Part shown: positions 7,578 through 25,524 of the stretch, piece by piece
How the letters are laid out: each line of letters begins with the position of its first letter
Position numbering within the stretch: position 1 is the first letter of the stretch
Origin: Caldimonas thermodepolymerans
Lineage (GTDB): Bacteria; Pseudomonadota; Gammaproteobacteria; Burkholderiales; Burkholderiaceae_C
Assembly (NCBI RefSeq): GCF_015476235.1
Contig: NZ_CP064338.1
Coordinates: 3,720,001 to 3,784,000, forward strand
DNA length: 64,000 nt
Direction of reading: 5' to 3'
The notes under the pieces: generated by a model
The model's database searches: none
Told to the model about the DNA's origin: nothing
Seen by the model: the letters and a program-made list of their open reading frames with translations, nothing else
Program-made: the position numbers and the translations under genes

Positions 7578-7602
7578 GTTCTTCTCCTGTGGGGGGTCGA
7601 GG

Positions 7603-8529: not shown

Positions 8530-8640
8530 GGGGGCTGGTGAATCTGCGATGGGTGAAAAAACAAGCCCGAGGCGGACGCCTCGGGGATGCCGTGCATTGT
8601 CCGGACCGACTCCCGCGGAACAAGCCAAGCAGCGCCAATG

Positions 8641-8665
8641 CTGCTATTCATTCACGGCATAGGAG
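8641..8665. promoter_or_regulatory. LysR-type operator candidate (CTGCTAT-N11-ATAGGAG)
   Basis: CTGCTAT at 8641-8647 and ATAGGAG at 8659-8665 are separated by exactly 11 bases, which is the T-N11-A geometry of LysR-type regulator sites. It lies midway between the divergent starts at 8529 and 8783 and could control both. The same element occurs at 17340, 21227 and 23812. The half-sites differ at one position (GCAG versus GGAG). Confidence 0.65.
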
Positions 8666-8782
8666 CGTGGCGGAATCGAAGAATCTGCAATTCGCAGGAA
8701 CTGCGAAACTCCCTTGACGCGTCGAGGCCGGCACACCAATGATGGAAAAAGGACTAGGACGCAACAAACCGCTGGAACCCAC

Positions 8783-9601
8783 ATGCCTTTGGACGCCCAT
8801 CTCGCCCGCCTCGAGCTTTCCACCCCCGACGTCAACGCGCTGGCCGACTTCTACCGCCGCAGCTACGGCATGCAGGTCGAGCAGACCGGCGCCGTGGTGC
8901 GCCTGACCGCCCCGGGCCGCGAACTGCGCCTGCACGAAGGCCCGGCCAACCAGTTCGTCAGCGCGAGCTTTCGCATGGCGCGCGCCGAGCTGCTCGCGCA
9001 GCACCGCGACCACCTGGGCGCCCAGGGCGTGGAATTCCAGCTGCTCGAATGCGGTGGCCACGTCGTGAAGGACCCGGAAGGCCGCGAGCTGCGCTTCCTC
9101 AATCCCAAGCCCGCGACGGCCGCGGCGACGCCGGCAGGCGTGCTGCCCGGGCGCCTGCAGCACTACGCGGTGCGCACGCCCGACCCGCAGCGGCTGGTCG
9201 ACTTCTACGTCGAGCGCCTGGGCTTCACGCTGTCGGACCGCGTGGTCGACGACCAGGGCGGCCTGGGCGCGGCCTTCCTGCGCACCGACCACGAGCACCA
9301 CACGCTGGCGATCTTCCGCGCGCCGGTGGTGCGCTTCGACCACTTCTCGTGCGAGACCGACGACTGGGAGACGTTGCGCGACTGGGCCGACCACATGGCC
9401 GAGGTCGACATCATGCTGGCCTGGGGCGTCGGCCGCCACGGCCCGGGCAACGACAACTTCTTCATGGTCGCCGACCCGGACGGCAACCTGGCCGAGATCT
9501 CGTGCGACCTCGAGGTCTGCGCTCCCGACCGCCCGGTCGGCCTGTGGAAGCACCGCCCCCAGACGCTGAACCGCTGGGGCGTGGCCATCATGCGCAGCTG
9601 A
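8783..9601 (+). CDS. Type I extradiol dioxygenase (VOC superfamily, two-domain)
   Basis: This 272-residue two-module vicinal-oxygen-chelate protein opens a catechol-type ring next to the diol. The C-terminal module carries a complete iron triad: His127 (LQHYAV), His187 (FDHFSC) and Glu238 (NLAEIS), with the catalytic-histidine region DHEHHTLAIF near 169-177. I chose ATG 8783, which begins the conserved MPLDAHLARLEL; a longer frame exists upstream without support. It leads a plus-strand unit with the IclR regulator (10 bases downstream) and the FAD hydroxylase, so hydroxylation and ring cleavage are encoded together. It is distinct from the HsaC-like enzyme at 15402-16319. The substrate is unknown. 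Confidence 0.88.
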   Translation: MPLDAHLARLELSTPDVNALADFYRRSYGMQVEQTGAVVRLTAPGRELRLHEGPANQFVSASFRMARAELLAQHRDHLGAQGVEFQLLECGGHVVKDPEGRELRFLNPKPATAAATPAGVLPGRLQHYAVRTPDPQRLVDFYVERLGFTLSDRVVDDQGGLGAAFLRTDHEHHTLAIFRAPVVRFDHFSCETDDWETLRDWADHMAEVDIMLAWGVGRHGPGNDNFFMVADPDGNLAEISCDLEVCAPDRPVGLWKHRPQTLNRWGVAIMRS

Positions 9602-9611
9602 GCCCGCCGCC

Positions 9612-10376
9612 GTGTCTCCCCTGCCGAAGGCCACGACGCGCACGCACCGTGCGCTGGCCGTGCTGTCGCTGTTCACGACGCACGGGCCGCAGCTGCGCGC
9701 CGCGCGCATCGCCGAGCTGCTGGACGTCTCGCTCGCCACCGCCTACCGCTGCCTGTCCGACCTGACCGCGGTGGGCCTGGTCGAGGACGCCGGCGGGGGC
9801 GACTACGTGCCCGGTCCGGCCATCGTCGAGCTGGACCGCCAGATCCGCCTGCACGATCCGCTGATCGCCGCCGCGCGCGAGCCGATGGCCACGCTGGCCG
9901 AGCGCACCGGCGGCACCGTGCTGCTGTGCCGGCTGCACGGGCTGAAGGTCATGTGCGTGCACCAGCACCCGGGGCGGCTGGGCCCCTCGTCGGTGAGCTA
10001 CGAGCGCGGCCGCGCGATGCCGCTGCTGCAGGGCGCGACCTCCAAGGCCATCCTCGCGCACCTGGACGACGCCTCCGTGCGCGAGCTGATCGAGCATGAC
10101 CCGGCGGCGTTCCGCCGCGCCGGGCTGGAGCCCGAGCTGGAGGCCGTGAGGCAGCGCCTGTCGCAGTGGCGTCGCCAGCCGGTGCTGCGCACCGCGCGCG
10201 AGGTGGACCCCGACGCGATGGGCTGGGCCGTGCCGCTGATCGTCAACGAGCGCGTGATCGGCAGCCTGAGCGTGGTGCTGTCGCGCGCGGCCGAGCCGAC
10301 CAGCGACGATGAACTGGTCGAGCAACTCGACGCGCTGGCCCACCACATCGAGGCGCGCTACGCGCCCCACCCTTGA
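9612..10376 (+). CDS. IclR-family transcriptional regulator
   Basis: This 254-residue protein has the IclR layout: an N-terminal winged helix-turn-helix (about 10-70, with IAELLDVSLATAYRCLSDL) and a C-terminal effector domain (about 80-250, with GTVLLCRLHGLKVMCVHQHPG and AVPLIVNERVIGSLSVVL). The frame begins with GTG 9612; no alternative ATG precedes the helix-turn-helix, so GTG is the likely start. IclR proteins such as MhpR and PcaR sense aromatic acids. It lies between the extradiol dioxygenase and the MhpA-type hydroxylase, so a local role on this unit is likely, but no operator can be assigned to it with confidence. Confidence 0.92.
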   Translation: MSPLPKATTRTHRALAVLSLFTTHGPQLRAARIAELLDVSLATAYRCLSDLTAVGLVEDAGGGDYVPGPAIVELDRQIRLHDPLIAAAREPMATLAERTGGTVLLCRLHGLKVMCVHQHPGRLGPSSVSYERGRAMPLLQGATSKAILAHLDDASVRELIEHDPAAFRRAGLEPELEAVRQRLSQWRRQPVLRTAREVDPDAMGWAVPLIVNERVIGSLSVVLSRAAEPTSDDELVEQLDALAHHIEARYAPHP

Positions 10377-10393
10377 ATTCCCCTATCCTGTCC

Positions 10394-11992
10394 ATGAGCA
10401 ACTCTTCTTCTACGCTGCGCGCCGACGTGCTGATCGTCGGCGCCGGCCCGGTCGGCCTGACGCTGGCCAACCTGCTGGGCACCTATGGCGTGCGCACCGT
10501 CATCATCGAGCGCCACGACGCGACCGTGCACGAGCCGCGCGCGGTGTCGATCGACGACGAGAGCCTGCGCACCATGCAGGCCGCGGGCCTGGTCGACGAC
10601 GTCGTCAAGGACGTCGTGATGGGCTACGGCGTGCGCTACTTCTCGTGGCGCGGCAACCCGTTCGCCGCGATCCAGCCGACGCGCCAGGAATACGGCTACC
10701 CGAAGCGCAATGCGTTCCGCCAGCCGCTGCTGGAAGCCACGCTGGCGCAGGGCACGCGGCGCTTCGGGCACGTGTCGCTGCTGTTCCGCCACGAGCTGCT
10801 GTCGTTCGAGCAGTCGGCCACCGGCGTGACCGCGCAGGTGCGCCACGACGGCGGCGAGCTGACCATCGAGGCGCCGTGGATGGTGGCCTGCGACGGCGGC
10901 CGCAGCCCGGTGCGCGAGATGCTGGGCATCCCGCTGGAAGGCGAGACCTATCCCGAGCGCTGGCTGATCGTCGACCTGGCGCAGCGCACGGTGCCGCTGC
11001 GGCATACCAGCACCTTCTGCGACCCGCGCCGCCCGGCGATCCGCCTGCCCGGCCCGCACGGCACGCTGCGCTACGAGTTCATGCTGCGCCCGGGCGACCG
11101 CGACGAGGAGGTGCTCGACGAGAAGAACTTCCGCGCCTGGATCGCCAACCGCGAGCCGCAGGACACCGAGCTGCCGCTGGTGCGCAAGGTGATCTACACC
11201 TTCCACGCGCGTGTCGCGCAGCGCTGGCGCGAAGGCCGCGTGTTCCTCGCCGGTGACGCGGCCCACCTGACGCCGCCCTTTGCCGGCCAGGGCCTCAACA
11301 GCGGCATCCGCGACGCGACCAACCTGTCGTGGAAGCTGGCCGCCGTGGTACGCGGCCAGGCCCCGGAATCCATCCTGGACACCTACGAGAGCGAGCGTCG
11401 CCCGCACGCCTCGGCGCTGATCCGGATGGCGCTGCGCATCGGCCACTTCATGCAGCCCAAGTCGGTGTTCGGCGCCGCGGTGTCGCAGGCCGCGCTGCGC
11501 GTGGCCTGCCTGCTGCCGCCGGTGCGCGACTACATCCTGCAGCTCAAGTTCAAGCCCAAGCCGGTACTGGAGCGCGGCTGGTACCAGCCCTCGCCGGTGG
11601 CACCGAAGGCCGAGCTGCTGACGCAGCCGCGCGTGGAGCTGCCCGACGGCCGCCACGTGCTGATGGACACGGTGCTGGGCGGCGACTACGCGGTGCTGGG
11701 CTGGGACTCGCCGGCCTTCCGCGCCGCAGCGGCGCGCCTGCTGCCGCCCGGGGCGCCGGGCCGCGTGGTCGGCGTGCTGCGCCAGGAGCTGGACTTCATC
11801 GGCACGCTGCCACAGGACATGGCGCTGGTGCGCGACGTCACCGGCGAGCTCGCCCAGTGGCTGGATGCGCGCGGCGCGGTCGCCGTGGTGATCCGCCCCG
11901 ACCGCTACTGGTACGCGCTGGTGGCGCCCCAGGCGCTCGGCGCCTCGCAGGCCCAAAGCCTGCCCCTGCCGGTGCAGGCACGCGCCGCATGA
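10394..11992 (+). CDS. mhpA: FAD-dependent aromatic hydroxylase, MhpA family (3-(3-hydroxyphenyl)propionate hydroxylase-like)
   Basis: This 532-residue class A flavoprotein monooxygenase adds an ortho hydroxyl to a phenol using NAD(P)H and O2, making a catechol for extradiol cleavage. The FAD dinucleotide motif VGAGPVGLT is near residues 16-24, the DG motif is in ACDGGRSPVRE, and the ribityl-binding GDAAHLTPPFAGQG lies further on; a C-terminal thioredoxin-like region follows. The length fits MhpA (about 550). I chose ATG 10394, 18 bases after the IclR stop; a TTG seven codons earlier overlaps that gene. Other phenolic acids could be the substrate, so the symbol denotes the family rather than a proven function. 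Confidence 0.85.
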   Translation: MSNSSSTLRADVLIVGAGPVGLTLANLLGTYGVRTVIIERHDATVHEPRAVSIDDESLRTMQAAGLVDDVVKDVVMGYGVRYFSWRGNPFAAIQPTRQEYGYPKRNAFRQPLLEATLAQGTRRFGHVSLLFRHELLSFEQSATGVTAQVRHDGGELTIEAPWMVACDGGRSPVREMLGIPLEGETYPERWLIVDLAQRTVPLRHTSTFCDPRRPAIRLPGPHGTLRYEFMLRPGDRDEEVLDEKNFRAWIANREPQDTELPLVRKVIYTFHARVAQRWREGRVFLAGDAAHLTPPFAGQGLNSGIRDATNLSWKLAAVVRGQAPESILDTYESERRPHASALIRMALRIGHFMQPKSVFGAAVSQAALRVACLLPPVRDYILQLKFKPKPVLERGWYQPSPVAPKAELLTQPRVELPDGRHVLMDTVLGGDYAVLGWDSPAFRAAAARLLPPGAPGRVVGVLRQELDFIGTLPQDMALVRDVTGELAQWLDARGAVAVVIRPDRYWYALVAPQALGASQAQSLPLPVQARAA

Positions 11993-12000
11993 ATGCGCGA

Positions 12001-12021
12001 CGGCCCGGCAAGGCCGGGCCG
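12001..12021. terminator. Hairpin between convergent genes
   Basis: A perfect 9-bp stem (CGGCCCGGC, loop AAG, GCCGGGCCG) lies between the stop of the FAD hydroxylase and the stop of the convergent LysR gene. No T-run follows on either strand, so it is a terminator only by position and stability. Confidence 0.5.
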
Positions 12022-12061
12022 CCTGCAAAGGAAAGAAGGAATCCGTGCGCGCCCCGTGCGG

Positions 12062-12958
12062 TCAGTCCGCCCCGAGCACCTCGGTGAGGGTGTCGCGCAC
12101 CAGCTGCGCCGCCTCGGTGACCAGCGCGCTCGGCAGCACGCGCACCGGCGAGATCAGCGACAGCACCACGTCCAGGTTGGTGCCGGAGATCTTCTGCCAG
12201 GCCATCGGCGGCAGGCGCGAGATCTTGCGCAGGCTGTTGGGCATGATGGAGTAGCCGATGCCCTGCGCGACCAGCTCCATCACCGCCGGCGTGGAGTCGA
12301 TCTCGAGCACGATGTTCAGGTTCAGCCCCAGGCGCGTCGCCGCGGCCTCGAGCATCGGGCGCACCCACTGGTTGCCGTGCGGCAGGATCAGCGGCAGGCG
12401 CGTGACGTCTTCCAGCGAGACTTCCGACTCGGCCGAGCCAACCGGCTCGGGACCGATCAGGCACAGCGGGTCGGCCACCAGCGGCACCACGCGCAGGCTG
12501 CTGGAGTGCAGCGGGTTGAGCACCAGCGCGAAGTCCAGCTGCCCGAGCAGCACGCGCTCGTACAGCAGGCCGGACAGCCCCTCGACCACGCTGATCTGGG
12601 CACGCGGGAAGCGCTCGACCATGCGCGGCATCAGCGTGGGCACGATCAGCCGGCCCATGCTGGGCGTCAGGCCGATGCCCAGCCGCCCGGTGAGCATGGA
12701 CTCGGTGTCGCGGATCGCCGCGATGCCCTGGTCCACCGTGTGCAGCACCGAGCGCGCGTACTCGAGGAACTTCTTGCCGGCCTCGGTGGGCAGCACGCCC
12801 CGGCCGTGGCGGTGGAACAGGCTGGCCCGCAGCTCGACCTCCAGCGCCCGGATCTGGCGGCTGAGCGTGGGCTGGGGCACGTCGAGCAGGTCGGCGGCCC
12901 GGATGTAGCTGCCCGCCTCCGCGACGGCCACGAAATTGCGTAACTGCGCGATGTCCAT
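12062..12958 (-). CDS. LysR-family regulator (candidate master regulator of the aromatic cluster)
   Basis: This 298-residue regulator has an N-terminal winged helix (MDIAQLRNFVAVAEAGSYI, then DVPQPTLSRQIRALE) and a periplasmic-binding-like effector domain from about 90. It begins 8 bases after the stop of the fused flavin reductase gene and is therefore the last gene of the hsa-like operon, which starts at 17170. That promoter region contains one of four LysR-type dyads in the cluster, so the protein may act on its own operon as well as on the other three sites. This link is inferred from position and site type only; the other LysR genes in the window belong to different clusters. Confidence 0.92.
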   Translation of the reverse strand: MDIAQLRNFVAVAEAGSYIRAADLLDVPQPTLSRQIRALEVELRASLFHRHGRGVLPTEAGKKFLEYARSVLHTVDQGIAAIRDTESMLTGRLGIGLTPSMGRLIVPTLMPRMVERFPRAQISVVEGLSGLLYERVLLGQLDFALVLNPLHSSSLRVVPLVADPLCLIGPEPVGSAESEVSLEDVTRLPLILPHGNQWVRPMLEAAATRLGLNLNIVLEIDSTPAVMELVAQGIGYSIMPNSLRKISRLPPMAWQKISGTNLDVVLSLISPVRVLPSALVTEAAQLVRDTLTEVLGAD

Positions 12959-12966
12959 GGCGGGGA

Positions 12967-14169
12967 TTATCCGCCTGCCGCCTTGCGCCTCAACGGGGTG
13001 ATGCGCCGGCCGATGGCCGCCGCGGTTTCCTGCAGGCGCTTGGCGCAGTCGCGGATCAGGCGGCCGTCCATGCCGCGCGGCAGCTCGCTCAGGCGCACCA
13101 CCAGGGCCACCTGGCCGTCGGCGTCGTGGACGGGGGCGGAGATGTGCAGCACGTCGTAGCGCTGGTCGTCCAGGATCTCGGCCGGCTCGTGCAGCGCCGA
13201 GGTGGCCTGCACCAGCGCCAGCAGGCGGCGCTCCTGCTCCGGCGTGCGGTGCGGGTTGGTGTAGAGCTCGATGCCTTCTTCCAGGTCGGCCTTCTCGTGC
13301 CCGTTGCACAGGCAGATCGACCAGCCGCGCTCGCGCACGCGCGCCAGGCGCTCGCGCGCAGCCTCGCGCACCGACTCGTCGCAGCGGCCCAGGCGCGACA
13401 GCCAGGTCTCGTCGTCGGGCGAGCCGGGCTGGCCGACGAACAGCGCGCCCATCGGGGGCACGATCGGCACGTGGAAGCCCAGGCGGCTCGAGCCGCGGCG
13501 GTTCAGCGAATAGTTGGCCACCGCGACGTAGACGCTGTCGCGGCCGGTGGAGGCCAGCAGCGCGCATTCGGCCGACAGGCGGGCCGCCAGCGTCTCGATC
13601 TCCTCGCGCGCCGCCTCGGCCAGGCCCACGGCCTGCAGGGTGTCGCGCTCGGCGGCAGCCACCAGCGGCCCGGTCGAGAAGCCACCGTAGCCGCGCTGGA
13701 AGAACAGCAGCGGCGTGGTGTTGCGCTCGAGGTTCATGTCGAGCACGGCGCCCAGCACGATGTAGTGGTCGCCGGCTTCGATGATGTTGTCATAGGTGCA
13801 GTCGATCCAGGAGACCACCCCGTCGATGACGGGGTTGCCGGCCGGGCTGGCATGCCAGGGGATGGAAGCGAACTTGTTCTCCCCCGGCGCGGCCAGCTTG
13901 CGGCAGATCGGCTCCTGGTCGGCCGCCAGCACGTTGATGCAGAAGCTCGGCGACTTGCGCATCAGGTCGAAAGTGCGCGAGCTCTTCATCGGCAGGAACG
14001 CCACCAGGGGCGGTTCCAGCGACACCGAGGTGAAGGTGCCGACCACCATGCCGATCGGCGCCCCTTGCGCATCCATCGCGGTCACGACGGCCACGCCGGT
14101 GGGATAACTCCCCAGCACTTCACGGAAGCGGTTGGGATCGATCGCGCGAGGAGCGGTTGCGTTGTCCAT
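12967..14169 (-). CDS. Flavin reductase fused to an IclR effector-like domain
   Basis: This protein has 400 residues. Residues 1-165 form a flavin reductase-like (HpaC/HsaB type) domain with GSYPTGVAVVTAMD, GMVVGTFTSVSLEPPLVAF and GDHYIVLGAV, which would supply reduced flavin to the monooxygenase encoded next (14203-15372). Stand-alone HsaB-type reductases have only about 170-190 residues. Residues 185-395 (from AAREEIETLAARLSAECALL) resemble the ligand-binding domain of IclR regulators, without a DNA-binding helix. The most direct reading is a reductase with a fused sensory domain. RBS-like GAGAGG precedes ATG 14169. It lies 33 bases downstream of the monooxygenase gene. Confidence 0.82.
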   Translation of the reverse strand: MDNATAPRAIDPNRFREVLGSYPTGVAVVTAMDAQGAPIGMVVGTFTSVSLEPPLVAFLPMKSSRTFDLMRKSPSFCINVLAADQEPICRKLAAPGENKFASIPWHASPAGNPVIDGVVSWIDCTYDNIIEAGDHYIVLGAVLDMNLERNTTPLLFFQRGYGGFSTGPLVAAAERDTLQAVGLAEAAREEIETLAARLSAECALLASTGRDSVYVAVANYSLNRRGSSRLGFHVPIVPPMGALFVGQPGSPDDETWLSRLGRCDESVREAARERLARVRERGWSICLCNGHEKADLEEGIELYTNPHRTPEQERRLLALVQATSALHEPAEILDDQRYDVLHISAPVHDADGQVALVVRLSELPRGMDGRLIRDCAKRLQETAAAIGRRITPLRRKAAGG

Positions 14170-14202
14170 GGGCGCCTCTCGGTTCTGGTGGTCCGGCGAC
14201 CG

Positions 14203-15372
14203 TCAGATGATGACGCCCGGCGCGACCGGCAGGTCGTACAGCGTGCCGGCGTACGCCGCGTAGACCATGTCGTCCTGGTTGCAGGCGTGGCCCAGGGCCA
14301 CCGACAGGTCACGCCACTGGCGCTGGATCGGGCTGGACAGGCGACTGGCGTTGCCGCCGGCGTGGCGGAACACCTGGAAGCCGATCTCGGCCGCACGGCG
14401 CACCGCGCGCACCTGGCGCACGCGGGCACGGCGCTGCACCGAGATGTCCACCTTCTCGCCGCGCTTGGCGATCTCGAAGGCCTCGCGCACGCCGGCCAGC
14501 ACCGCCTCCTTGGAGGCTTCGATGTCGGCGATCGCGGCGCCCAGGGCCGCCATCTGGTACGGGTTGTTGGTGGACTTCAGGCCCCGCGTGGTGCGCGACG
14601 CCGCATAGTCGGCGAAGTGGCGCACCAGGCCGTCGGCGATGCCCACCGTCGCGGCGGCGATCGCCCCCGGGAAGATCAGGTCGAACGGCACCTGGTACAG
14701 CGGGATGCCCGGGCGGTTGGCCGACGCGTACTCCTGGTTGTTGAGCTTGTCGACGTCGATGGTGCGGTAGTCCGGCACGAAGGCGTCCTTGACCAGGATG
14801 TCCTTCGAGCCCGTGCCCTGCAGGCCCATCACCTGCCACGAATCCTGCAGGATCTCGTAGTCCGAGCGCGGCAGGATGAAGTGGAACTTGCGGGTGAAGG
14901 CGTCCTTCGGGCCGTTTTCATCTTCGGCCAGCACGCCCAGCACCGCCCAGGTGCAGTGGTCGCTGCCCGACGAGAACGGCCAGCGGCCGTTCAGGATGTA
15001 GCCACCTTCGACGCGCTTGGCGCGGCCGAAGAAGGCGTACGGCGACGAGGTCCAGGTGTCGTGGTCCTTGCCCCACACCTCTTCCTGCATGCGCGGGTCG
15101 CCCTGGCCGAACTCGAACGGGTGGATGCCCACCACGCCGGCCACCCAGCCGATCGACGGCGCCAGCGCGGTGGTTTCCATCACGACCTTCAGGAAGTCGC
15201 AGGGATCGGATTCGAAGCCGCCGTACTGCTTGGGCTGCAGCATGCGCACCACGCCGCTTTCCAGCAGGATCTTGGCCGCGGCGTCGCTGACGCGGCCCAG
15301 CTTATCGCTGGGTTCGACCTCGGCCTTGATGCGTTCGGCGTTGGCCTTGATGAATTCGAGGACGGAACTCAT
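14203..15372 (-). CDS. Two-component flavin-dependent monooxygenase, HsaA-like (acyl-CoA dehydrogenase fold)
   Basis: This 389-residue oxygenase component resembles HsaA, TesA2 and p-hydroxyphenylacetate hydroxylase C2. It uses free reduced flavin to hydroxylate a phenolic ring into a catechol. Family features are SSPYAFFGRAKRVEGGYILN, the WPFSSGSDHCTWAVLG motif, WQVMGLQGTGSKDI and the C-terminal RDLSVALGHACNQDDMVYAA. AAGGAGA lies 6 bases before ATG 15372. The reductase partner is the next gene. Ring cleavage and C-C hydrolysis are encoded upstream (HsaC/HsaD-like). Steroid ring A/B is one possible substrate class, but no other steroid genes are visible here. Confidence 0.88.
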   Translation of the reverse strand: MSSVLEFIKANAERIKAEVEPSDKLGRVSDAAAKILLESGVVRMLQPKQYGGFESDPCDFLKVVMETTALAPSIGWVAGVVGIHPFEFGQGDPRMQEEVWGKDHDTWTSSPYAFFGRAKRVEGGYILNGRWPFSSGSDHCTWAVLGVLAEDENGPKDAFTRKFHFILPRSDYEILQDSWQVMGLQGTGSKDILVKDAFVPDYRTIDVDKLNNQEYASANRPGIPLYQVPFDLIFPGAIAAATVGIADGLVRHFADYAASRTTRGLKSTNNPYQMAALGAAIADIEASKEAVLAGVREAFEIAKRGEKVDISVQRRARVRQVRAVRRAAEIGFQVFRHAGGNASRLSSPIQRQWRDLSVALGHACNQDDMVYAAYAGTLYDLPVAPGVII

Positions 15373-15401
15373 GTAGTGTCTCCTTCTGGCGGTCGCCCGG
15401 C

Positions 15402-16319
15402 TCAGGCCGCGGCGCCGTTGTCGTTGTCGTCGTACACGTAGAGGAACGGCGACAGTTCGCGGTGCTGGTTCACGTGGCCCCACAGGGTCGCGCTGTCGTA
15501 GTGGCGCGGCACCCACAGGTCCTGGTCCACGGTCATGCCGCCCCAGCCGTACTCGATGCGGAAGTTCGACGGGGTGTGCATGTAGAACGACACCACATGG
15601 TCGTTGGCATGACGGCCCAGCGTGCGGGTGATCGGCACGCCGCGCTCGTGGCACAGGTCGTAGGCGAAGCCGACGTCGTCCAGCGCGTTGACTTCCAGCA
15701 TCAGGTGCAGGAAGGCCGGCTTCTTGATCGGCGGCTGCGCGATGGCCAGCGAGTGGTGGCGGCCGTTGACATGGAAGAAGTGGGCCTTGATCGGGCCCTC
15801 CTGCACCGTGTCGGACTGGTGGAAGCCCATCACGTCCATGTAGAAGCGGCGCGCCGCTTCCAGCTCCGGTACGCCCAGCACCACGTGGCCCAGGCCCTGG
15901 TCGCCGGTGCGGAAGCCGGTCAGCGCGCGGCCCGGCCGGAACGGCGCGGTCGCGTGCATCAGGCCCCAGGCCAGCTCGTGGCGGAAGCCGACCGGGTCGC
16001 GGAAGGCGTAGAAGCCTTCCACCGAGCGCTCCGCGGCCTGCTCGGCCGTGGCACGCTCGATCTGGATGCCGGTCGCCGCGACGCGGTCGGCCAGCGCCCG
16101 CGCCGCCGCCTCGTCCTTCATCGACCAGCCGATGTAGGCCACGCCGTCATGCGTGCCCGGGTGGATGACCAGGCGGTAGGCCACGTCGTCGATGCGCAGG
16201 CGCACCGCGCCGTCCGGGCCGTTGCCCACGAACTCGGCGCCCAGCACTTCGGGGCCGAAGGTCTCCCACTCCTTGTAGGCCGGCGACTTGACGCCGAAAT
16301 ACGCAAGGGACTGGATCAT
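15402..16319 (-). CDS. Extradiol dioxygenase, HsaC/BphC type
   Basis: This 305-residue type I extradiol dioxygenase has two VOC modules, like 2,3-dihydroxybiphenyl dioxygenase and HsaC. The iron ligands are His145 (GLGHVVLGV), His205 (FLHLMLEV) and Glu256 (FRIEYGWGG). His188/His189 (GRHHSLAIA), His237 (GRHAND) and Tyr246 (SFYMHTP) match the catalytic histidines and tyrosine of BphC. The C-terminal LWGH is shared with HsaC. I chose ATG 16319, where homology begins, although the frame is open further upstream. It follows the hydrolase gene by 11 bases in the same operon. Confidence 0.92.
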   Translation of the reverse strand: MIQSLAYFGVKSPAYKEWETFGPEVLGAEFVGNGPDGAVRLRIDDVAYRLVIHPGTHDGVAYIGWSMKDEAAARALADRVAATGIQIERATAEQAAERSVEGFYAFRDPVGFRHELAWGLMHATAPFRPGRALTGFRTGDQGLGHVVLGVPELEAARRFYMDVMGFHQSDTVQEGPIKAHFFHVNGRHHSLAIAQPPIKKPAFLHLMLEVNALDDVGFAYDLCHERGVPITRTLGRHANDHVVSFYMHTPSNFRIEYGWGGMTVDQDLWVPRHYDSATLWGHVNQHRELSPFLYVYDDNDNGAAA

Positions 16320-16330
16320 GATGCCCCTCC

Positions 16331-17170
16331 TCAGGGGTTGGGGTTGCCCTGGATGAAGGCGTCGACGCTGCGGTTGAACTCGTCGGAGTGCTCCAGCTGC
16401 ACCCAGTGGCCGCACTTGCTGATGACCAGCATGCGCGAGTTCGGGATGGCGCGGGCCAGGTGCGCGGCGGCGGTGAACGGCACCGTGCGGTCGTCGCGGC
16501 CGTGCATCAGCAGGGTCGGGCACTTGATGGTCGGCAGCTTGGTCTGGTCGATCGGCACCATCGGCTTGCCGTGGCCGCTCTTCCAGCCTTCGATGTGGTC
16601 CGGGCGGGCCAGCAGGGCAGCCACGCGCTCCTTCACGAACTCGTCGGTGACGATGCTCTGGTCATAGGCCATCACCGAGATGAAGCGGCGCATCGTCTCG
16701 GGGCCGGGCTCGAAGTAGGCGGCTTCCAGCGCCTTGACGCCTTCGCTCAGGCCCAGCGGCTCCAGGAAGGAAGGCACGCCGCAGGACGAGCCCATCGTGA
16801 TCAGGTGCGAGACCAGGTCGGGACGCTCGTAGGCCAGGCGGATGCACGAGGAGCCGCCCATCGAGTTGCCGACGACGGCCGCGCGCTTGATGCCCAGCTC
16901 GTCCAGGAACTCGGCCAGCACGCCGCTGTTGTTGCGCTTGTCGTACGTGACGGACTGCGACTTGCCCCAGCCCGGCAGGTCGATCGCGAACACACGGTAC
17001 TTCTTGGCCAGCGTTTCGAAGTTGGGGTGGTAGTTGCTCCAACCGGAGGCGCCGGGGCCGCCGCCGTGCACCAGCACCAGCGGATGCCCTTCACCAGCTT
17101 CGTGATAGTGGATGTCCCAGTTCTTGGTACGGATGCGCTTGCTGGTGTTCTGCTCGGTCAGGGTGGACAT
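16331..17170 (-). CDS. Meta-cleavage product hydrolase, HsaD/BphD type
   Basis: This 279-residue alpha/beta hydrolase splits the C-C bond of the extradiol cleavage product, giving a 2-hydroxypenta-2,4-dienoate and an acid. The oxyanion segment HGGGPGASGW is at 35-44, the nucleophile is Ser103 in GNSMGG, an acidic residue is in HGRDDRTVP (Asp226/227) and the base is His255 in KCGHW. AAGGAAGAG precedes ATG 17170. It is the first gene of the minus-strand meta-cleavage operon; the hydroxypentadienoate would be taken over by the lower-pathway genes at 25525-28328. Confidence 0.93.
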   Translation of the reverse strand: MSTLTEQNTSKRIRTKNWDIHYHEAGEGHPLVLVHGGGPGASGWSNYHPNFETLAKKYRVFAIDLPGWGKSQSVTYDKRNNSGVLAEFLDELGIKRAAVVGNSMGGSSCIRLAYERPDLVSHLITMGSSCGVPSFLEPLGLSEGVKALEAAYFEPGPETMRRFISVMAYDQSIVTDEFVKERVAALLARPDHIEGWKSGHGKPMVPIDQTKLPTIKCPTLLMHGRDDRTVPFTAAAHLARAIPNSRMLVISKCGHWVQLEHSDEFNRSVDAFIQGNPNP

Positions 17171-17339
17171 GTCTCTTCCTTCTCAGAGTCGCGCTTGGGG
17201 CGCTCAGGGGTTGCTTGCAAATGCAGGCCGCTCGGCCCGCCGGTACGGGTGTTTGCCGCTGTCTGCGGGCCGACGACCGTGGTCGGCCCCGAGTTTTTAG
17301 CTGAACACGCGCTCTAGAACAATGCAATTTCAAGCATGC

Positions 17340-17364
17340 AAGCTATGCGCATCCGCCATAGCAG
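17340..17364. promoter_or_regulatory. LysR-type operator candidate (GCTAT-N11-ATAGC)
   Basis: AAGCTAT (17340-17346) and ATAGCAG (17358-17364) are separated by 11 bases. GCTAT and ATAGC form a perfect dyad with the T-N11-A spacing of LysR sites. It lies 170 bases upstream of the HsaD-like start and is one of four such elements in the aromatic cluster. Confidence 0.65.
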
Positions 17365-17421
17365 TCATGGTGCACAGCTACGTTGCGCCAACTCAACAGG
17401 GTCAAAGAGAATTTATGAGCT

Positions 17422-17437
17422 TAGATTCCAGAATCTA
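17422..17437. promoter_or_regulatory. 16-bp palindrome TAGATTC-CA-GAATCTA
   Basis: The sequence is a perfect 7-bp inverted repeat with a 2-base centre, partly nested with a TCCAG...CTGGA dyad. Size and symmetry fit a TetR- or IclR-type operator. Which regulator binds is unknown. Confidence 0.4.
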
Positions 17438-17668
17438 GAACTGGAGTCTGGCGAGGAAGAGGAGACGACCGCCCACCAAGGCGAGGAAAGAAGGTAGACC
17501 CGCAAGCCTTGCGCTGGCGGGGTGCGTCGTCACTTCGAGTTCGACGACCTAGGAGACAGCATGGAGAACTGCGGCACCCGAACCGGCTCGCACGTGCCCT
17601 GAACGGGGCCCGCACCAGCGATCCGACCGCACGCACCACGCGTTAAGAACGAATCATAGCAAAAGATT

Positions 17669-17680
17669 AGGGTTAACCCT
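17669..17680. promoter_or_regulatory. 12-bp palindrome AGGGTTAACCCT abutting a start codon
   Basis: This perfect palindrome ends one base before ATG 17682. Its left half (AGGG) is the only Shine-Dalgarno-like element for that gene, so a protein bound here, or the hairpin itself, would block initiation. Confidence 0.4.
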
Positions 17681-17681
17681 T

Positions 17682-18164: not shown

Positions 18165-18220
18165 TCGGCATCACGCCCGATCCCGGTCCCGACCGATCCA
18201 CATACAAGATTGCCTGAAAA

Positions 18221-18766
18221 ATGACGACAACCACTGCCAACAACTCCGAGTACATCAAAGTCGACGGATGGTTCGCCGGCACGCTGCTGATCACCTTCTT
18301 CCGCACCTTCCTGGGCGGCTGGATGATCGTCGGCGGCCTCAACACCGTGCTGCCCTGGTTCGGCTTCTCGCACATCTTCCCGCAGCCGCTGGGCACGCTG
18401 CACCTGTCCAACGTCATGCTGGTGTCGATGCTCGAGACCGGCCTGATGAACTACGTGAAGGTGTTCGAGGTCATCGTGGGCGTGTGCCTGGTGTTCAACC
18501 GCTTCGTCCCGCTGGCCCTGCTGATCGGCCTGCCCATCGGCCTGGTGGTGTTCTACAACTCCATCGCGCTGAACTACCGCTATGAGCGCCTGTTCAGCTT
18601 CTACATGTCGGTGTGGTGCGTGTACATGAACATCATCCTGTGCTTCGCGTACATCAAGTACTACATCCCCATGCTGCGCTTCAAGACCCCGGTGGGCAAG
18701 CTTGAAGACCTGAAGCTCCTGGGCACGATCTTCAAGTCGGAAGAAGAGGCTTCCTCCTCTCGCTGA
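18221..18766 (+). CDS. Small integral membrane protein (DoxX-like), unknown function
   Basis: This 181-residue protein has about four hydrophobic helices: residues 17-45 (starting WFAGTLLITFFRTFLGG), 62-80, 84-115 (VFEVIVGVCLVF, then PLALLIGLPIGLVVF) and 125-150. The layout resembles DoxX-type proteins, though I recognise no diagnostic motif. The C-terminal 30 residues are charged and probably cytoplasmic. It follows the membrane-anchored NTF2-like gene and precedes a transporter gene. A role in handling a hydrophobic aromatic substrate at the membrane is only a guess from context. No strong ribosome-binding site is visible before ATG 18221. Confidence 0.6.
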   Translation: MTTTTANNSEYIKVDGWFAGTLLITFFRTFLGGWMIVGGLNTVLPWFGFSHIFPQPLGTLHLSNVMLVSMLETGLMNYVKVFEVIVGVCLVFNRFVPLALLIGLPIGLVVFYNSIALNYRYERLFSFYMSVWCVYMNIILCFAYIKYYIPMLRFKTPVGKLEDLKLLGTIFKSEEEASSSR

Positions 18767-18778
18767 CGCTTGGTCGCG

Positions 18779-18832
18779 CCACGCTGATCACTGACAATCC
18801 GCTTTCCCGTAACGGCCACGCGATCAGCGTGG
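18779..18832. terminator. Long-loop hairpin, possible terminator
   Basis: A perfect 11-bp inverted repeat (CCACGCTGATC at 18779-18789 and GATCAGCGTGG at 18822-18832) encloses 32 bases and is followed by CTTTCACGTTTCC. It lies between the membrane-protein gene and the transporter gene, close to the latter's start. It may be a terminator or a leader structure. Confidence 0.4.
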
Positions 18833-18859
18833 CTTTCACGTTTCCAAGCGTCCCTCCCC

Positions 18860-20248
18860 ATGACTGACTCCACCACCCGCAACGCCGACGACGCGAAGTC
18901 GCGTCGCCGCGCCATCATTGCCAGCTACCTGGGCACCACGCTCGAGTACTACGACTTCCTGCTCTACGGTGTTGCCTCGGCGCTGGTGTTCCCGAAGATC
19001 TTCTTCGTCTCGATGGACCCGCTGCTGGCGACGCTGTCGGCATTCGCGACGTTTGCCGTGGGCTACTTCGCGCGGCCGGCCGGCGCCATCGTGTTCGGGC
19101 ACTTCGGCGACATCATCGGTCGGCGTGCGGTGCTGGTGATCACCATGCTGATGATGGGCATCTCGAGCGTGCTCATCGGCCTGCTGCCCGGCTACGACCA
19201 GTGGGGCCTCGCCGCGCCGATCGCGCTGGTGGTGCTGCGCCTGGTGCAGGGCTTCGCGATCGGCGGCGAATGGGGCGGCGCGACGCTCATGTCGATGGAG
19301 CACGCCAAGCCCAAGGGCCGCGGCTTCGCGGTCAGCGTGGTGGCTTCCGGCGGCCCCAGCGGCGCCGTGCTCGGCACGCTGGTGATGACGCCGTTCTCGA
19401 TGCTGCCCACCGAGGCCTTCCTGAGCTGGGGCTGGCGCATCCCGTTCCTGCTCAGCGCGCTGCTGGTCGTCATCGGCCTGGTCGTGCGCAGCCAGGTCAG
19501 CGAATCCCCCGAATACGAAGCGGCGCGCAAGGCGCGTGCCGCCAAGCCGCGCAGCGCCAGCGAGGTGCTGCCGGTGGTGAAGGTGTTCCGCCACGCCTGG
19601 AAGGAAGTGCTGTCCGGCTTCATCGGCGGCCTGGCCCCGCTGGGCTTCGCCACCTTCGCCGCGGCCTTCCTGCTCAATTACGCGGTCTCCGCCGGTCACG
19701 CGCGGCCCAACGCGCTGATCGCGATGACGATCGCCAACTTCGTCCACATCTTCACGACCCCGCTGTTCGGCGCGATGTCCGACCGCCTGGGCCGCCGCCC
19801 GCTGATGATCTCCGGCGCCGTGCTCGGCATGCTGCTGATCTGGCCGATCTTCCTGCTCGTGGAGCACGGCGGCTTCTTCACGCTGGTGCTGGCGCTGCTG
19901 CTGGCCCTGCCGCTGGTGCAGGCGATGATGGGCGGCACCTACAACACCTGGATCAGCGAGAAGTTCGCCGCCGACATCCGCTACAGCGGCGTCGCGCTGA
20001 CCTTCCAGCTCGCCTCCACGCTCGGTGCCGGCCTGGCGCCGCTGGTGGCGACCAGCCTGCTGGCGGCCAGCGGCGGCCAGGACCCGCGCTGGGTGGCGCT
20101 ATTCTTCGGCGGCCTGTGCCTGGTCAGCTGCATCACCTACGTCTACAGCCGCGACAACGCGAACCGCACGCTGGCGGTGGTGACCGGCGAAGCCGCCCCT
20201 GCCGAGGCGCCGCCACCCGCGGGCGTGCCGGGCCAGGCGCGTTCCTGA
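18860..20248 (+). CDS. MFS transporter, metabolite:H+ symporter (MHS) family
   Basis: This 462-residue transporter has 12 predicted membrane helices. The MHS signature is present: GTTLEYYDFLLYGVASALVF at the first helix, RPAGAIVFGHFGDIIGRRAVL at the helix 2-3 loop, RLVQGFAIGGEWGGATLMSME in helix 4, and the equivalent SDRLGRRPLM loop in the second half. The family includes proton symporters for aromatic and dicarboxylic acids (ShiA, CitA, MopB). It lies inside the aromatic cluster and is likely to import one of its substrates. A downstream TetR gene starts 88 bases later. Confidence 0.92.
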   Translation: MTDSTTRNADDAKSRRRAIIASYLGTTLEYYDFLLYGVASALVFPKIFFVSMDPLLATLSAFATFAVGYFARPAGAIVFGHFGDIIGRRAVLVITMLMMGISSVLIGLLPGYDQWGLAAPIALVVLRLVQGFAIGGEWGGATLMSMEHAKPKGRGFAVSVVASGGPSGAVLGTLVMTPFSMLPTEAFLSWGWRIPFLLSALLVVIGLVVRSQVSESPEYEAARKARAAKPRSASEVLPVVKVFRHAWKEVLSGFIGGLAPLGFATFAAAFLLNYAVSAGHARPNALIAMTIANFVHIFTTPLFGAMSDRLGRRPLMISGAVLGMLLIWPIFLLVEHGGFFTLVLALLLALPLVQAMMGGTYNTWISEKFAADIRYSGVALTFQLASTLGAGLAPLVATSLLAASGGQDPRWVALFFGGLCLVSCITYVYSRDNANRTLAVVTGEAAPAEAPPPAGVPGQARS

Positions 20249-20336
20249 TGCACCATAATCTGGGCCGCGCCGCCACCCGCGGTGCCGGCCCCGATCGTTC
20301 ATTCCCCCTTCCGTTTCCGCAGATGCGAGGTAGTTC

Positions 20337-21047
20337 GTGACCGTCACCAGGAATGCCCCCCGCCGCGCCGGAGAGCACCGGACCAGTCCCGCCGTGCGTG
20401 AACGCATCCTCGCTGCTGCGTTCGAAGTGGTGTCCAAGTACGGCTACAACGGCACGACGGTCGCCAAGGTGGCGGCCAAGGCCGGCCTGCCCGTGGGCAG
20501 CGTGTACTGGCACTACGAGAACAAGGACCAGCTGCTGGTGGCGCTGATCGAGGACAGCTACGAGCGCTGGCACAGCCAGATCGGCCAGTACCAGCAGCCG
20601 CTGCCCGGCGAGACCTTCGAGCAGCATGTCTACCGCGTCTTCTGCAGCCCGGCCTCGCGCCCCTACTTCGCCGCCGACTTCTGGCGCCTGGGCGTGATCC
20701 TCAGCGTCGAGAAGTCGGTGCCCGAGCAGGCCGCGCGCAAGCGCTTCCTGAAGATCCGCGAGCTGCAGCGCGAGGAACTGACCTCCTGGTGGCAACGCAC
20801 GCTGCCGCCCGAGACGCTGGAAAAGGATCCCGAGCTGCCCAACCGCCTGAGCCGCTTCACGCTGGCGCTGCAGGACGGCAACGCGATCGCCGGGTCCTCG
20901 GGCGAATCGGTGGATGACTTCCACCGCATGCTGGCCGCCAGCCTCCTGCACCTGGCGCGCAACCCCTTGCTGGGCGACACGCCCCCCGCGCCGGACACGG
21001 CCTCGCGTCCGCGCACGGCGTCGCGCAGCCGCGCCTCGGCCGCCTGA
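20337..21047 (+). CDS. TetR-family regulator
   Basis: This 236-residue regulator has its helix-turn-helix at residues about 18-65 (RERILAAAFEVVSKYGYNG, TTVAKVAAKAGLPVGSVYWH), ending with the typical SVYWHYENKDQLLVAL. The remainder is the effector and dimer domain. The C-terminal 25 residues are rich in Pro, Arg, Ser and Ala and look disordered. GTG 20337 is the best start, with GAGGTAG 9 bases upstream. The regulated genes may be the transporter upstream or the porin downstream. The palindrome at 17422-17437 has the right form for a TetR operator, but nothing proves the link. Confidence 0.9.
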   Translation: MTVTRNAPRRAGEHRTSPAVRERILAAAFEVVSKYGYNGTTVAKVAAKAGLPVGSVYWHYENKDQLLVALIEDSYERWHSQIGQYQQPLPGETFEQHVYRVFCSPASRPYFAADFWRLGVILSVEKSVPEQAARKRFLKIRELQREELTSWWQRTLPPETLEKDPELPNRLSRFTLALQDGNAIAGSSGESVDDFHRMLAASLLHLARNPLLGDTPPAPDTASRPRTASRSRASAA

Positions 21048-21226
21048 CCACGCGCGCCCCCGAGGGGGCGCCACGCACGACCACCGCGCCTTGCGGCTTC
21101 GGGCCTGGCCCGTTGGCCCGGGGCGCGGTTTCCTTTTGCCCATTGGCAGCGGCATCGCGATGCGTGCACGCCACGAGGCATCGTGCGACCGGTCACGCGT
21201 GATCGCGGCGCCGCGTGACACGCTGC

Positions 21227-21251
21227 GAGATATGCGGGGCCCGAATACTAG
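21227..21251. promoter_or_regulatory. LysR-type operator candidate (TAT-N11-ATA)
   Basis: GAGATAT and ATACTAG are separated by 11 bases. This is the weakest of the four dyads, but its downstream flank AGAAAT matches the copy at 23812-23836 and its spacer also ends in CGA. It lies 178 bases before the porin start. Confidence 0.45.
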
Positions 21252-21303
21252 AAATCGCCCTTCTCGCCTTGCTGCACCTCAAGGCAGTCCACACACTCAC
21301 GCT

Positions 21304-21332
21304 GCAACTGCGACGTGCCCCGTCGCAGTTGC
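21304..21332. promoter_or_regulatory. 12-bp perfect inverted repeat in the porin leader
   Basis: GCAACTGCGACG, spacer TGCCC, CGTCGCAGTTGC. It could be an operator or an mRNA leader hairpin about 97 bases before the porin start. No T-run follows, so a rho-independent terminator is unlikely. Confidence 0.5.
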
Positions 21333-21428
21333 GCCTACGAGCGACCCACACGATCGGCACGCACCGATCGGGACCGTGAGCCGGTTCGCACGGACCGCAG
21401 CTCAGACAAATACGACACGGAGACCGAT

Positions 21429-22601
21429 TTGAAGTTCAAGAGTTTCAAGATCCTGGCCATTGCTGCGGCCTGCGCGGCGCCCGCCCTGGCTTCCGCCCAG
21501 TTCCAACTGGGCAGCGGGGTCGAGATGCGCATCTATGGTGTGGCCGACATCATGATGCAGCACTACCGCGCCGACGGCGACGGCGGCACGCACACCCGCT
21601 CGGTGGTGGACGCCGGTGGCCTGGGCAGCAGCCGTCTGGGCTTCCTGTTCACGAAGGAACTGGCCAACGGCATGAAGGCCGGGGTCCGCCTGGAAAGCGG
21701 CTTCAACACCGACAGCGGCCGCCTGGGCTCGACCGGTGGCTCCGCCGACCGTGTCTACAGCCGCCAGGCCTACGTCTCGCTGGCCGGCAGCTTCGGTGAA
21801 GTGCGCATGGGTCGCGTGCAGGGCCCGAGCTACCTGTACTCGCTGGACTTCGATCCGGCGCAGCTGGGCCCCTACGGCACGCAAGGCGCGCTGCTGATCC
21901 AGGGCTCCGGCACGCCCGGCACGCCGTCGCGCGCGCTCGACCCCAACGTCCCCGCGGGTTCGGTCGGCTTCATGATCAACCCGATCTCGCGCACCGACAA
22001 CACCATCCACTACCTGTCGCCCAAGTTCGGCGGGTTCTCGCTCCAGGCCTCGCATTCGCCGTCGGAATCGGTGGCGGGTGCCAGCAGCATGACCAACGCC
22101 TACCTGCGCTACGAGACGGGTGACTGGGCGTTCGGCTACGCGATCCACCACCTGGGCAACAACCGCCGCGGCGGCGCCGTCAAGACCACCGACGTGCTGG
22201 AGCACTCGATCGGCGTGTTCACCAAGGTGATCAAGGGCACCGACCTGGGCCTGACCTTCAGCTACAAGGACAAGACCAACCAGGCGGTGGACGCCAACGG
22301 CGACGTCGCCATCTCCAAGGCCGAGAAGGCGCTGATCCTGAGCGGCGTGACCCGACTGACCGAGGTCGACCACCTGCTGTACACCATCGGCCAGTACTTC
22401 AGCCCGCTGGACGACGCCGATGCACGCAGCGCGGCGCTGTACTACCGCCACTACATCGACCCGACGTTCGCGGTGTTCGCCGGCATCAGCTACCTGACCC
22501 AGGACGACAACTCGCAGATCCGTCCGAGCCCGAGCGCTCCCCGGGTGCGCGCCGGTGGCGACGTCACGACGTTCTCGGTGGGCGTGAACTTCCGCTTCTG
22601 A
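21429..22601 (+). CDS. Gram-negative general porin (outer membrane)
   Basis: This 390-residue precursor has a signal peptide (KFKSFKILAIAAACAAPALA, cleavage near ASAQ) followed by the betaproteobacterial porin pattern: VEMRIYGVADIMMQHY, SSRLGFLFTKELANGMKAG, RVYSRQAYVSLAGSFGEVRMGR, and a C-terminal FSVGVNFRF ending in the phenylalanine required for outer-membrane insertion. The start is TTG 21429, preceded by GGAG at proper spacing; a longer frame upstream would place non-secretory sequence before the signal peptide. It probably admits aromatic acids. Expression may respond to the LysR-type site in its leader. Confidence 0.92.
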   Translation: MKFKSFKILAIAAACAAPALASAQFQLGSGVEMRIYGVADIMMQHYRADGDGGTHTRSVVDAGGLGSSRLGFLFTKELANGMKAGVRLESGFNTDSGRLGSTGGSADRVYSRQAYVSLAGSFGEVRMGRVQGPSYLYSLDFDPAQLGPYGTQGALLIQGSGTPGTPSRALDPNVPAGSVGFMINPISRTDNTIHYLSPKFGGFSLQASHSPSESVAGASSMTNAYLRYETGDWAFGYAIHHLGNNRRGGAVKTTDVLEHSIGVFTKVIKGTDLGLTFSYKDKTNQAVDANGDVAISKAEKALILSGVTRLTEVDHLLYTIGQYFSPLDDADARSAALYYRHYIDPTFAVFAGISYLTQDDNSQIRPSPSAPRVRAGGDVTTFSVGVNFRF

Positions 22602-22648
22602 TCGCCCCGCAGCCCGGCGGCCCCGCCGCCGGGTGTTCCCCAAAAGCA

Positions 22649-22681
22649 GAAGAGCCGGCCGCTTGCGCGGACCGGCTCTTC
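22649..22681. terminator. Bidirectional terminator between convergent porin and DctP-type genes
   Basis: A 10-bp stem, GAAGAGCCGG (22649-22658) with CCGGCTCTTC (22672-22681), lies between the converging stops at 22601 and 22702. Short A- and T-containing flanks on both sides fit a bidirectional terminator. Confidence 0.7.
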
Positions 22682-22701
22682 GTCGTTCGGGCCTTGCGCT
22701 T

Positions 22702-23736
22702 TCAGCGGGCCTTCTGCTGGATGGCGTTGAGCTCCTGCTCGTACAGCGCCATCAGGCGCGCGTCGAACTTCGCTGCGTAGCGCTCGCGCACCGGGCGGGT
22801 CAGCGCCTCGAGCTTCTGGCGCTCGGCCTCGGGCAGTTCGGCGACCTTCATGCCCAGCTCCTGCAGCTTCGCGCGCACGCGCAGCGTGTCCTCGTGCACC
22901 CAGCGGCGCTGCAGCTGGCCCGCGTGCTGCGCGGCCTGGCGCAGCAGGTCCTGGTCGTCGGCGCTCAGCGACTGCCAGAACGGTGCACGCGCCACCAGCA
23001 CGATCGCGGCATAGGCGTGGTTGGTGAGGGTCAGCCACTGCTGCACTTCATGGAACTTGCCGGCGATGATCTGCGCCTCGGTGTTGTCCTGGGCGTCGGC
23101 GCGGCCGGTCTTGAGCGCCTCGTAGACCGGCTTGAACAGCATCGGCACCGGCGTCGCGCCCAGCGCGCCGTAGACGTCCGAGAAGAACGGCTCGGGAATC
23201 ACGCGGAACTTCAGGCCCTGGAAGGCCGCGGCGCTGTCCAGCGGCGCCTTCGACGAGGTCATCTGGCGCATGCCGCTTTCCCACCAGGCGGTGCCGACCA
23301 GGCCGTGCTCGGGCAGGCGGTTCAGCAGCGCGGTGCCGAAGCGGCCGTCCAGCAGCGCGTGCGCCTGGGCTTCATCCTTGAGCGTGAACGGGAAATCCAG
23401 CACGCCGAAGGCCGGCTCCAGCGGCGCCAGCCCCGTGACCGACACCAGCATCAGGTCGGGCACGCCCTCGCCACCACTGCGCAGCGCGGCCATCTGCTGG
23501 CCCGGCCCGCCGGGGATCGTGTCGGTGCGCACCTTCGCGCGCAGCCGCCCGCCGCTGAGCCGGGCCACGCGGTCCGCGAAGGCCTGCAGGCCGCGGCGCA
23601 CCGGGTGCTCGGCCGGCAGGTAGGAGCGAAAATCCGCCACCTCGAACTCGCGCACGGCTGCCGGGCCGGCGGCCAGCGCCGGGCCGCCCGCCATCGCCAG
23701 CGCCACGGCCGCGAGCATCTTTCTTCTTTTGAGCAT
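22702..23736 (-). CDS. TRAP transporter substrate-binding protein, DctP family
   Basis: This 344-residue periplasmic receptor has a signal peptide (MLKRRKMLAAVALAMAGGPA, cleavage after ALA). Family features include EVADFRSYLPAEHPVRRGLQAFAD, the conserved arginine region GLKFRVIPEPFFSDVYGALGATPVPM, and ALKTGRADAQDNTEAQI. I chose ATG 23736, with AAAGGAG 6 bases before it; two codons upstream is another ATG that overlaps this site. No DctQ/DctM membrane genes are adjacent, so the partner transporter lies elsewhere. It is divergent from the MmgE/PrpD gene, and a LysR-type dyad sits between them. Confidence 0.9.
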   Translation of the reverse strand: MLKRRKMLAAVALAMAGGPALAAGPAAVREFEVADFRSYLPAEHPVRRGLQAFADRVARLSGGRLRAKVRTDTIPGGPGQQMAALRSGGEGVPDLMLVSVTGLAPLEPAFGVLDFPFTLKDEAQAHALLDGRFGTALLNRLPEHGLVGTAWWESGMRQMTSSKAPLDSAAAFQGLKFRVIPEPFFSDVYGALGATPVPMLFKPVYEALKTGRADAQDNTEAQIIAGKFHEVQQWLTLTNHAYAAIVLVARAPFWQSLSADDQDLLRQAAQHAGQLQRRWVHEDTLRVRAKLQELGMKVAELPEAERQKLEALTRPVRERYAAKFDARLMALYEQELNAIQQKAR

Positions 23737-23811
23737 GCACATCTCCTTTGGTCTTGGGGCCGGCCATTCTGGGTGAGTGCCGCCCCCGCCACAACGCGCG
23801 TGCACACATGC

Positions 23812-23836
23812 CTGCTATGTGCTGCGCGAATAGCAG
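23812..23836. promoter_or_regulatory. LysR-type operator (perfect CTGCTAT-N11-ATAGCAG)
   Basis: The perfect 7-bp dyad CTGCTAT/ATAGCAG with an 11-base spacer is the best of the four copies. It lies 76 bases from the DctP-type start and 103 bases from the MmgE/PrpD start on the other strand, so it can serve both. Confidence 0.75.
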
Positions 23837-23938
23837 AAATGAGGCGCCTTGTCTTGTCCTGCCTTGCCGGGCTGTCCATAGTCTGCGGGCCCATCGGCAC
23901 ACCGCACGTCACACAGCAAAGACAACAGGAGTTCCCCC

Positions 23939-25474: not shown

Positions 25475-25488
25475 GCGTCCGTGACCGC

Positions 25489-25504: not shown

Positions 25505-25524
25505 TGTGATTTCCGGAGACCTTG

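Follow-up and report, generated by a model that had tools for sequence, protein, structure and literature searches.

The aromatic meta-cleavage cluster of Caldimonas thermodepolymerans lies in a 64,000-nucleotide stretch of contig NZ_CP064338.1 (positions 3,720,001 to 3,784,000, called the window below; coordinates refer to the window unless written with seven digits). Four inverted repeats (dyads) of the form CTAT-N11-ATAG, or close to it, are found in this cluster. Judging from sequence comparison, we consider it highly probable that these dyads are recognition sites of one LysR-type activator, encoded at 12062–12958 within the same cluster, and that they drive a set of promoters with the −35-like box at a fixed distance from the dyad. 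This protein is likely the regulator of the cluster.

Exact Dyads Occur Only in the Cluster

The four dyads reported in a first-pass annotation of this DNA are all present, each with 11 bases between the half-sites (Table 1), and all four are inverted repeats with the T-N11-A signature of LysR-type operators. The core CTAT-N11-ATAG is exact in three of them (8641, 17340, and 23812); the dyad at 21227 has two mismatches. The annotation had also asked whether similar dyads occur at random frequency elsewhere. In the whole genome (3,858,501 bp), we found the exact core only four times (3716490, 3728644, 3737343, and 3743815), each time in the cluster, within 27.3 kb (3716490 to 3743833). Three of these matches are the exact dyads of the window, and the fourth is located 3.5 kb left of it. 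The remarkable aspect of the exact dyads is their place, not their number: the reversed control of the exact core has two matches in the genome against four for the dyad, and many related genomes contain as many exact matches, scattered. With one mismatch allowed, the genome contains 39 matches compared with 70 for a reversed control pattern, so that one-mismatch matches elsewhere look like background. Statistics from the window alone were dropped as a deciding test because the excess was too weak: with up to one mismatch, there are four matches against a mean of 1.47 in shuffled sequences, and 4 of 100 shuffles reach four.

The Predicted Promoters Share a Fixed Register

Offsets were counted along the dyad core, whose first base (the C of CTAT) is position 1. 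Six promoters have a −35-like TTG that begins exactly at offset 40, namely those of the SDR-Rieske operon, the hsa-like operon, the DctP receptor, the PrpD operon, a second PrpD-like gene downstream of the fourth exact dyad (57% identical to the PrpD of the window), and the porin, where the weak dyad at 21227 is followed by TTG at the same distance. Five of eight arms have TTG at offset 40, and none of 20,000 random rotations reached five of eight at any one offset. The composite TAT-N11-ATA-N21-TTG, defined after five of its six arms were known and without use of the weak 21227 site, is matched six times in the genome, always in the cluster, and this weak site is among the matches; the reversed control gave one.

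A −10-like box follows near 63–68 in these arms, one base earlier in the SDR-Rieske arm. Together with TTG at 40, this box implies a transcript start near 75 and a dyad centre near −65, which is the location of the primary site in LysR-type operators, as measured from predicted, unmapped starts. A YAG-N3-TG block at 20–27 is complete in most in-register arms and partial in the 17340 left arm and the porin arm. On a 12-feature score, the gene-facing arms reach 8–12, except for the extradiol arm (5), and the left arms of 21227 and 3716490, which appear to face no gene, score 1 and 3, respectively. A richer pattern with up to three mismatches matches 11 places, seven of which are cluster arms; the other four have three mismatches each, and the control gave four matches.

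The Register Is Conserved in Massilia

The closest relatives of the 12062–12958 LysR are five Massilia proteins (55–60% identical), which form one group with the window protein in a tree of 84 LysR proteins (support 100/100). The search gave seven loci, and the other two, with remote LysR genes, were excluded. In the five clusters, genes for SDR, Rieske oxygenase, acyl-CoA dehydrogenase (ACAD), CoA-transferase, and MhpDFE diverge from an hsaB-lysR pair, and a porin gene lies beyond. Alignment revealed a conserved block in both promoter regions, and TTG starts at exactly 40 in five of five SDR arms and five of five porin arms (10/10). Since offset 40 had been set beforehand on the window, this agreement constitutes an independent test. 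The ten SDR and porin arms have 12-feature scores of 11–12 and the ten opposite arms 1–5, on a score that was set after the Massilia arms had been seen, so that the TTG offset is the only out-of-sample quantity there.

These data make it extremely unlikely that the dyads are chance matches, noticed by eye because a 69% GC genome makes AT-rich words conspicuous. In favour of chance are the modest excess in the window and the unremarkable genome-wide number of exact matches, but it is contradicted by the confinement to 27.3 kb, by the fixed promoter register, and by the same register in Massilia.

The Massilia clusters also bear on whether the dyads could be operators of another regulator of the cluster, the IclR (9612–10376) or TetR (20337–21047) protein. 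Both genes are located inside the cluster, and operators of these two families are usually palindromic. We consider this assignment improbable: tblastn (1e-10) detected neither of them closer than about 10 kb to the five Massilia LysR orthologs, where the register is conserved, and a dyad centre 30 bases upstream of the −35 box fits an activator rather than a repressor. In addition, none of 18 non-self IclR or TetR homolog loci has a dyad with up to one mismatch in the upstream stretch examined, although this test is weak because IclR is encoded within an operon, the TetR matches begin inside the protein, and the stretch for one locus (L147) was misplaced. This last locus contains nothing below two mismatches in its entire length, and two TetR homolog loci have a one-mismatch dyad elsewhere. 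Beside IclR homologs specifically, the count is zero of nine non-self loci (L131–L139; about 300 bases, up to one mismatch), again a weak test given the position of IclR in an operon.

That another LysR-type protein of this genome binds the sites, for example that encoded at 28458–29456 or one from outside the cluster, appears just as improbable. T-N11-A is a motif of the whole LysR family, the genome contains many LysR genes (43 candidates, of which 19 were scored), and at one Massilia locus (L067) a second LysR gene adjoins the ortholog. Among the 19 scored candidates, however, there is no second member of this LysR lineage, with E values of 1.6e-27 or worse. The composite is missing upstream of two other LysR genes that were examined (L128 and L129); beyond the six arms listed above it has no match in the genome, and hence none beside 28458–29456; and the Massilia clusters retain a LysR of the 12062–12958 type beside the same register.

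More Distant Relatives of the LysR Protein

For a broader comparison we used 60 stretches from the better matches listed (not all of them), 58 of which hold a LysR homolog. A dyad with up to one mismatch occurs between −250 and +30 of the lysR start in 22 of these 58 relatives, compared with an average of 2.6, and never more than 9, in 300 mononucleotide shuffles, and in 1 of 20 control genes (hand-picked weaker LysR homologs, including L128 and L129 from this genome). In 38 relatives chosen for a dyad with up to two mismatches at a suitable place, TTG at 40 on the arm pointing away from lysR is the most frequent offset (10/38; the next is offset 11 with 8), and a −10-like box is conserved at 64–68. 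A 17-position composite score, partly defined on the same relatives on which it was counted, is at least 13 in 34 of 58 relatives, in 0 of 20 control genes, and in 0.09% of shuffles. On the LysR tree, on which the labels of the window and Massilia rows were taken from their clusters and not from their own upstream DNA, the site label changes 13 times compared with 28 after shuffling, and 0 of 500 shuffles were as low. Confinement of dyad and composite, the register in Massilia, and co-conservation in these relatives bear out the first-pass choice of the 12062–12958 LysR as the best candidate regulator.

In 14 of 34 relatives, the longest open reading frame (ORF) pointing away from lysR begins 74–77 bases from the dyad start, where the transcript is predicted to begin (e.g., L010, L014, L021, L032, L054, and L059). 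This spacing suggests leaderless mRNAs, with the reservation that the way of choosing the ORF favours early starts. Four of ten such ORF proteins that were checked are SBP_bac_11 proteins, with matches that begin close to the N terminus.

In a set of 399 family genomes, this one has the most matches to the pattern CTAT-N11-ATAG-N20-TTG (5; the next have 3). As a regulon finder, this blind scan, with matches not sorted by gene context, yielded no further regulons and was not above control.

Several observations weigh against the assignment of these dyads to the 12062–12958 LysR. The exact composite is matched in 45 of the 399 family genomes and its reversed control in about 47. Several −10 boxes are poor (arms 8644L and 17343L), with start sites that are predicted only. 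The Massilia dyads deviate from CTAT-N11-ATAG by one to three bases, and the hsaB-lysR arm there is without the composite (TTG at 40 in one of five). Among the more distant relatives, CTAT/ATAG with spacers of 5 and 18 is also raised (14 and 15 of the 58 with up to one mismatch), 24 of 58 score below 13 of 17, and the tree implies many changes of the site label. The origin of the 12-feature and 17-position scores, the scoring of 19 of 43 LysR candidates, and the second LysR gene at L067, all noted above, count on the same side.

Table 1. Dyads, predicted promoters, and genes of the aromatic cluster (window coordinates)
Feature	Position	Strand	Remarks
Dyad CTGCTAT-N11-ATAGGAG	8641–8665	none	extended half-site only on the SDR-Rieske side
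Dyad AAGCTAT-N11-ATAGCAG	17340–17364	none	between hsa-like operon and 17682 gene
Weak dyad GAGATAT-N11-ATACTAG	21227–21251	none	before porin
Dyad CTGCTAT-N11-ATAGCAG	23812–23836	none	common to two predicted mirror-image promoters (DctP, PrpD)
Predicted promoter, SDR-Rieske-ACAD-CoA-transferase operon	8596–8623	−	TTGTTC (offset 40), N16, GACAAT; arms of Massilia orthologs 12/12 features
Predicted promoter, hsa-like/LysR operon	17294–17322	−	TTGTTC (offset 40), N17, TAAAAA
Possible promoter towards 17682	17383–17412	+	TTGCGC (offset 41), N18, GAGAAT; out of register by 1–2
Predicted porin promoter	21269–21297	+	TTGCTG (offset 40), N17, CACACT
Predicted DctP promoter	23766–23794	−	TTGTGG (offset 40), N17, CAGAAT; 12/12 features
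Predicted PrpD promoter	23854–23882	+	TTGTCC (offset 40), N17, CATAGT; 11/12 features
Predicted promoter, extradiol-IclR-mhpA unit	8714–8743	+	TTGACG-N18-AATGAT; not in LysR register
Perfect palindrome TTCGCAGGAACTGCGAA	8691–8707	none	just before extradiol promoter; from inverted-repeat scan
LysR-type regulator, 298 aa	12062–12958	−	last gene of hsa-like operon; proposed dyad binder
Predicted target operon: SDR, Rieske oxygenase, acyl-CoA dehydrogenase, CoA-transferase	4003–8529	−	Pfam; Massilia synteny; SDR start inferred
Predicted target operon: HsaD-like hydrolase, HsaC/BphC-like dioxygenase, HsaA-like monooxygenase, flavin reductase, LysR	12062–17170	−	profile matches
Porin	21315–22601	+	Pfam Porin_4; longest ORF, real start possibly near 21430
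DctP-type solute receptor	22702–23736	−	Pfam on ORF 22702–23805; start by eye, ATG behind AAGGAG
Predicted target operon: PrpD-like protein, MhpD, MhpF, MhpE	23939–28328	+	profile matches

Proposed Regulation and Target Units

The regulator belongs to the LysR family, since the longer ORF 12062–13567 matches the Pfam domains HTH_1 (E 1.6e-20) and LysR_substrate (E 3.1e-31). We infer that this protein would bind the dyad centred near −65 as a dimer of dimers that extends to contacts adjacent to the −35 box. Binding of an inducer from the aromatic pathway to LysR would then lead to recruitment of RNA polymerase to the promoters with TTG at 40, and so activate the SDR-Rieske operon, the hsa-like operon including lysR itself, the porin, DctP, PrpD-MhpDFE, and the second PrpD gene. 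A primary site near −65, contacts towards −35, and inducer-dependent polymerase recruitment are established LysR biology (PMC4834489 and PMC5002191).

The lysR gene is not divergent from its target with an overlapping site, an arrangement that is usual, not defining, for the family. Its position at the end of the operon transcribed from the predicted 17340 promoter leads us to expect positive autoregulation; according to PMC4834489, most LysR activators repress their own genes. In Massilia, lysR is the second gene of the hsaB-lysR pair, divergent from SDR-Rieske, and the lack of the composite in this arm implies that positive autoregulation would not be general.

The composite is found on both sides of the 23812 dyad, so that this one dyad may serve two mirror-image promoters. 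More broadly, two divergent promoters could share a single dyad, away from lysR, that acts in mirror image as the −65 activator site for each; 23812 would be such a case, and perhaps 17340 as well. We propose this tentatively, at slightly less than an even chance. If true, the regulator would be a symmetric two-way switch that operates without a second primary site or a DNA loop of the ThnR type.

The first-pass annotation had placed seven units under one regulator. Five of them (SDR-Rieske, hsa-like, porin, DctP, and PrpD-MhpDFE) retain this assignment by virtue of a dyad and TTG at 40, and the second PrpD gene outside the window is added. For the gene pair to the right of 17340, the dyad is present, but TTG is at 41 and the −10-like box is shifted; the description of this pair as NTF2-like found no confirmation, as neither protein matched Pfam or NCBIfam. 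For the extradiol-IclR-mhpA unit, by contrast, the assignment is not supported: its arm of the 8641 dyad has no TTG at 40 and meets five of 12 features, and the unit has a separate promoter-like site and its own palindrome. This palindrome is the sole exact copy in the genome. Another genome (locus L131) has the same three-gene module, where no dyad has fewer than two mismatches and TTCGCAGGAACTGCGAA is not among the inverted repeats detected. The unit is probably outside the LysR regulon and under a putative IclR site at 8691–8707.

Some further features were noted. HsaA and HsaC are called "-like" because their scores are under the NCBIfam curated cutoffs. The flavin reductase (12967–14169) shows a weak C-terminal match to IclR_C (20.0 bits, under the curated cutoff of 24), possibly a built-in effector domain, and genes 57–60% identical to it adjoin LysR in Massilia. 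A hairpin of eight pairs followed by a T run (8566–8585, minus strand) coincides with the predicted SDR-Rieske transcript start and is perhaps an attenuator, a 5′ stabilizer, or a chance structure. AT-rich TTCTAGAA and TTCCAGAA blocks near 17313–17319 and 17423–17449 are shared with both Massilia promoter regions (L067–L071), which suggests a second regulator. The 17423–17449 block is not a near-perfect palindrome (16 of 27 bases match).

Comparison with Known Systems

The present analysis assigns a regulator, an operator, and predicted target promoters to an aromatic meta-cleavage cluster whose core recurs in five Massilia genomes, and for a single lineage of LysR proteins it gives a promoter register that can be counted. 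Uptake (porin and DctP) and degradation would be induced together. In the open-access literature, we found no described regulator or regulon for this cluster, and the exact term CTAT-N11-ATAG matched no publication. The proposed regulon is new but of a known, ordinary LysR kind. FdeR (naringenin) was also considered as a comparison and set aside.

An extended LysR box, CTATA-n9-TATAG, has been described for six gammaproteobacterial regulators, all of them encoded divergently from their targets (PMC5002191). CTAT-N11-ATAG is the same consensus with one more base per side left free, and for GcvA the centre of the first inverted repeat lies at −65 relative to the target start, in agreement with the prediction made here. 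Unlike those regulators, the present lysR is itself part of a target operon, with sites spread across 27 kb. The CatR/ClcR/BenM group and a new Comamonadaceae LysR resembling CatR (PMC6449761) are similar in that they concern LysR proteins of aromatic pathways, T-N11-A repeats, and phylogenetic footprinting. They differ in consensus (AkACC-N5-GGTAT for the CatR/ClcR/BenM group, as opposed to CTAT/ATAG here) and in their catechol-pathway targets, as opposed to a Rieske/meta-cleavage cluster.

In the tetralin pathway of Sphingopyxis granuli, the most similar studied system that we found, one LysR activator, ThnR, is needed for four catabolic promoters (PMC4834489). Its primary site is centred at −64 in three promoters, and it likewise activates two close divergent promoters. 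At each divergent promoter ThnR has a primary site of its own, and it uses a DNA loop, whereas here one dyad appears to serve both; one dyad for two mirror-image promoters is the least usual feature of this regulon.

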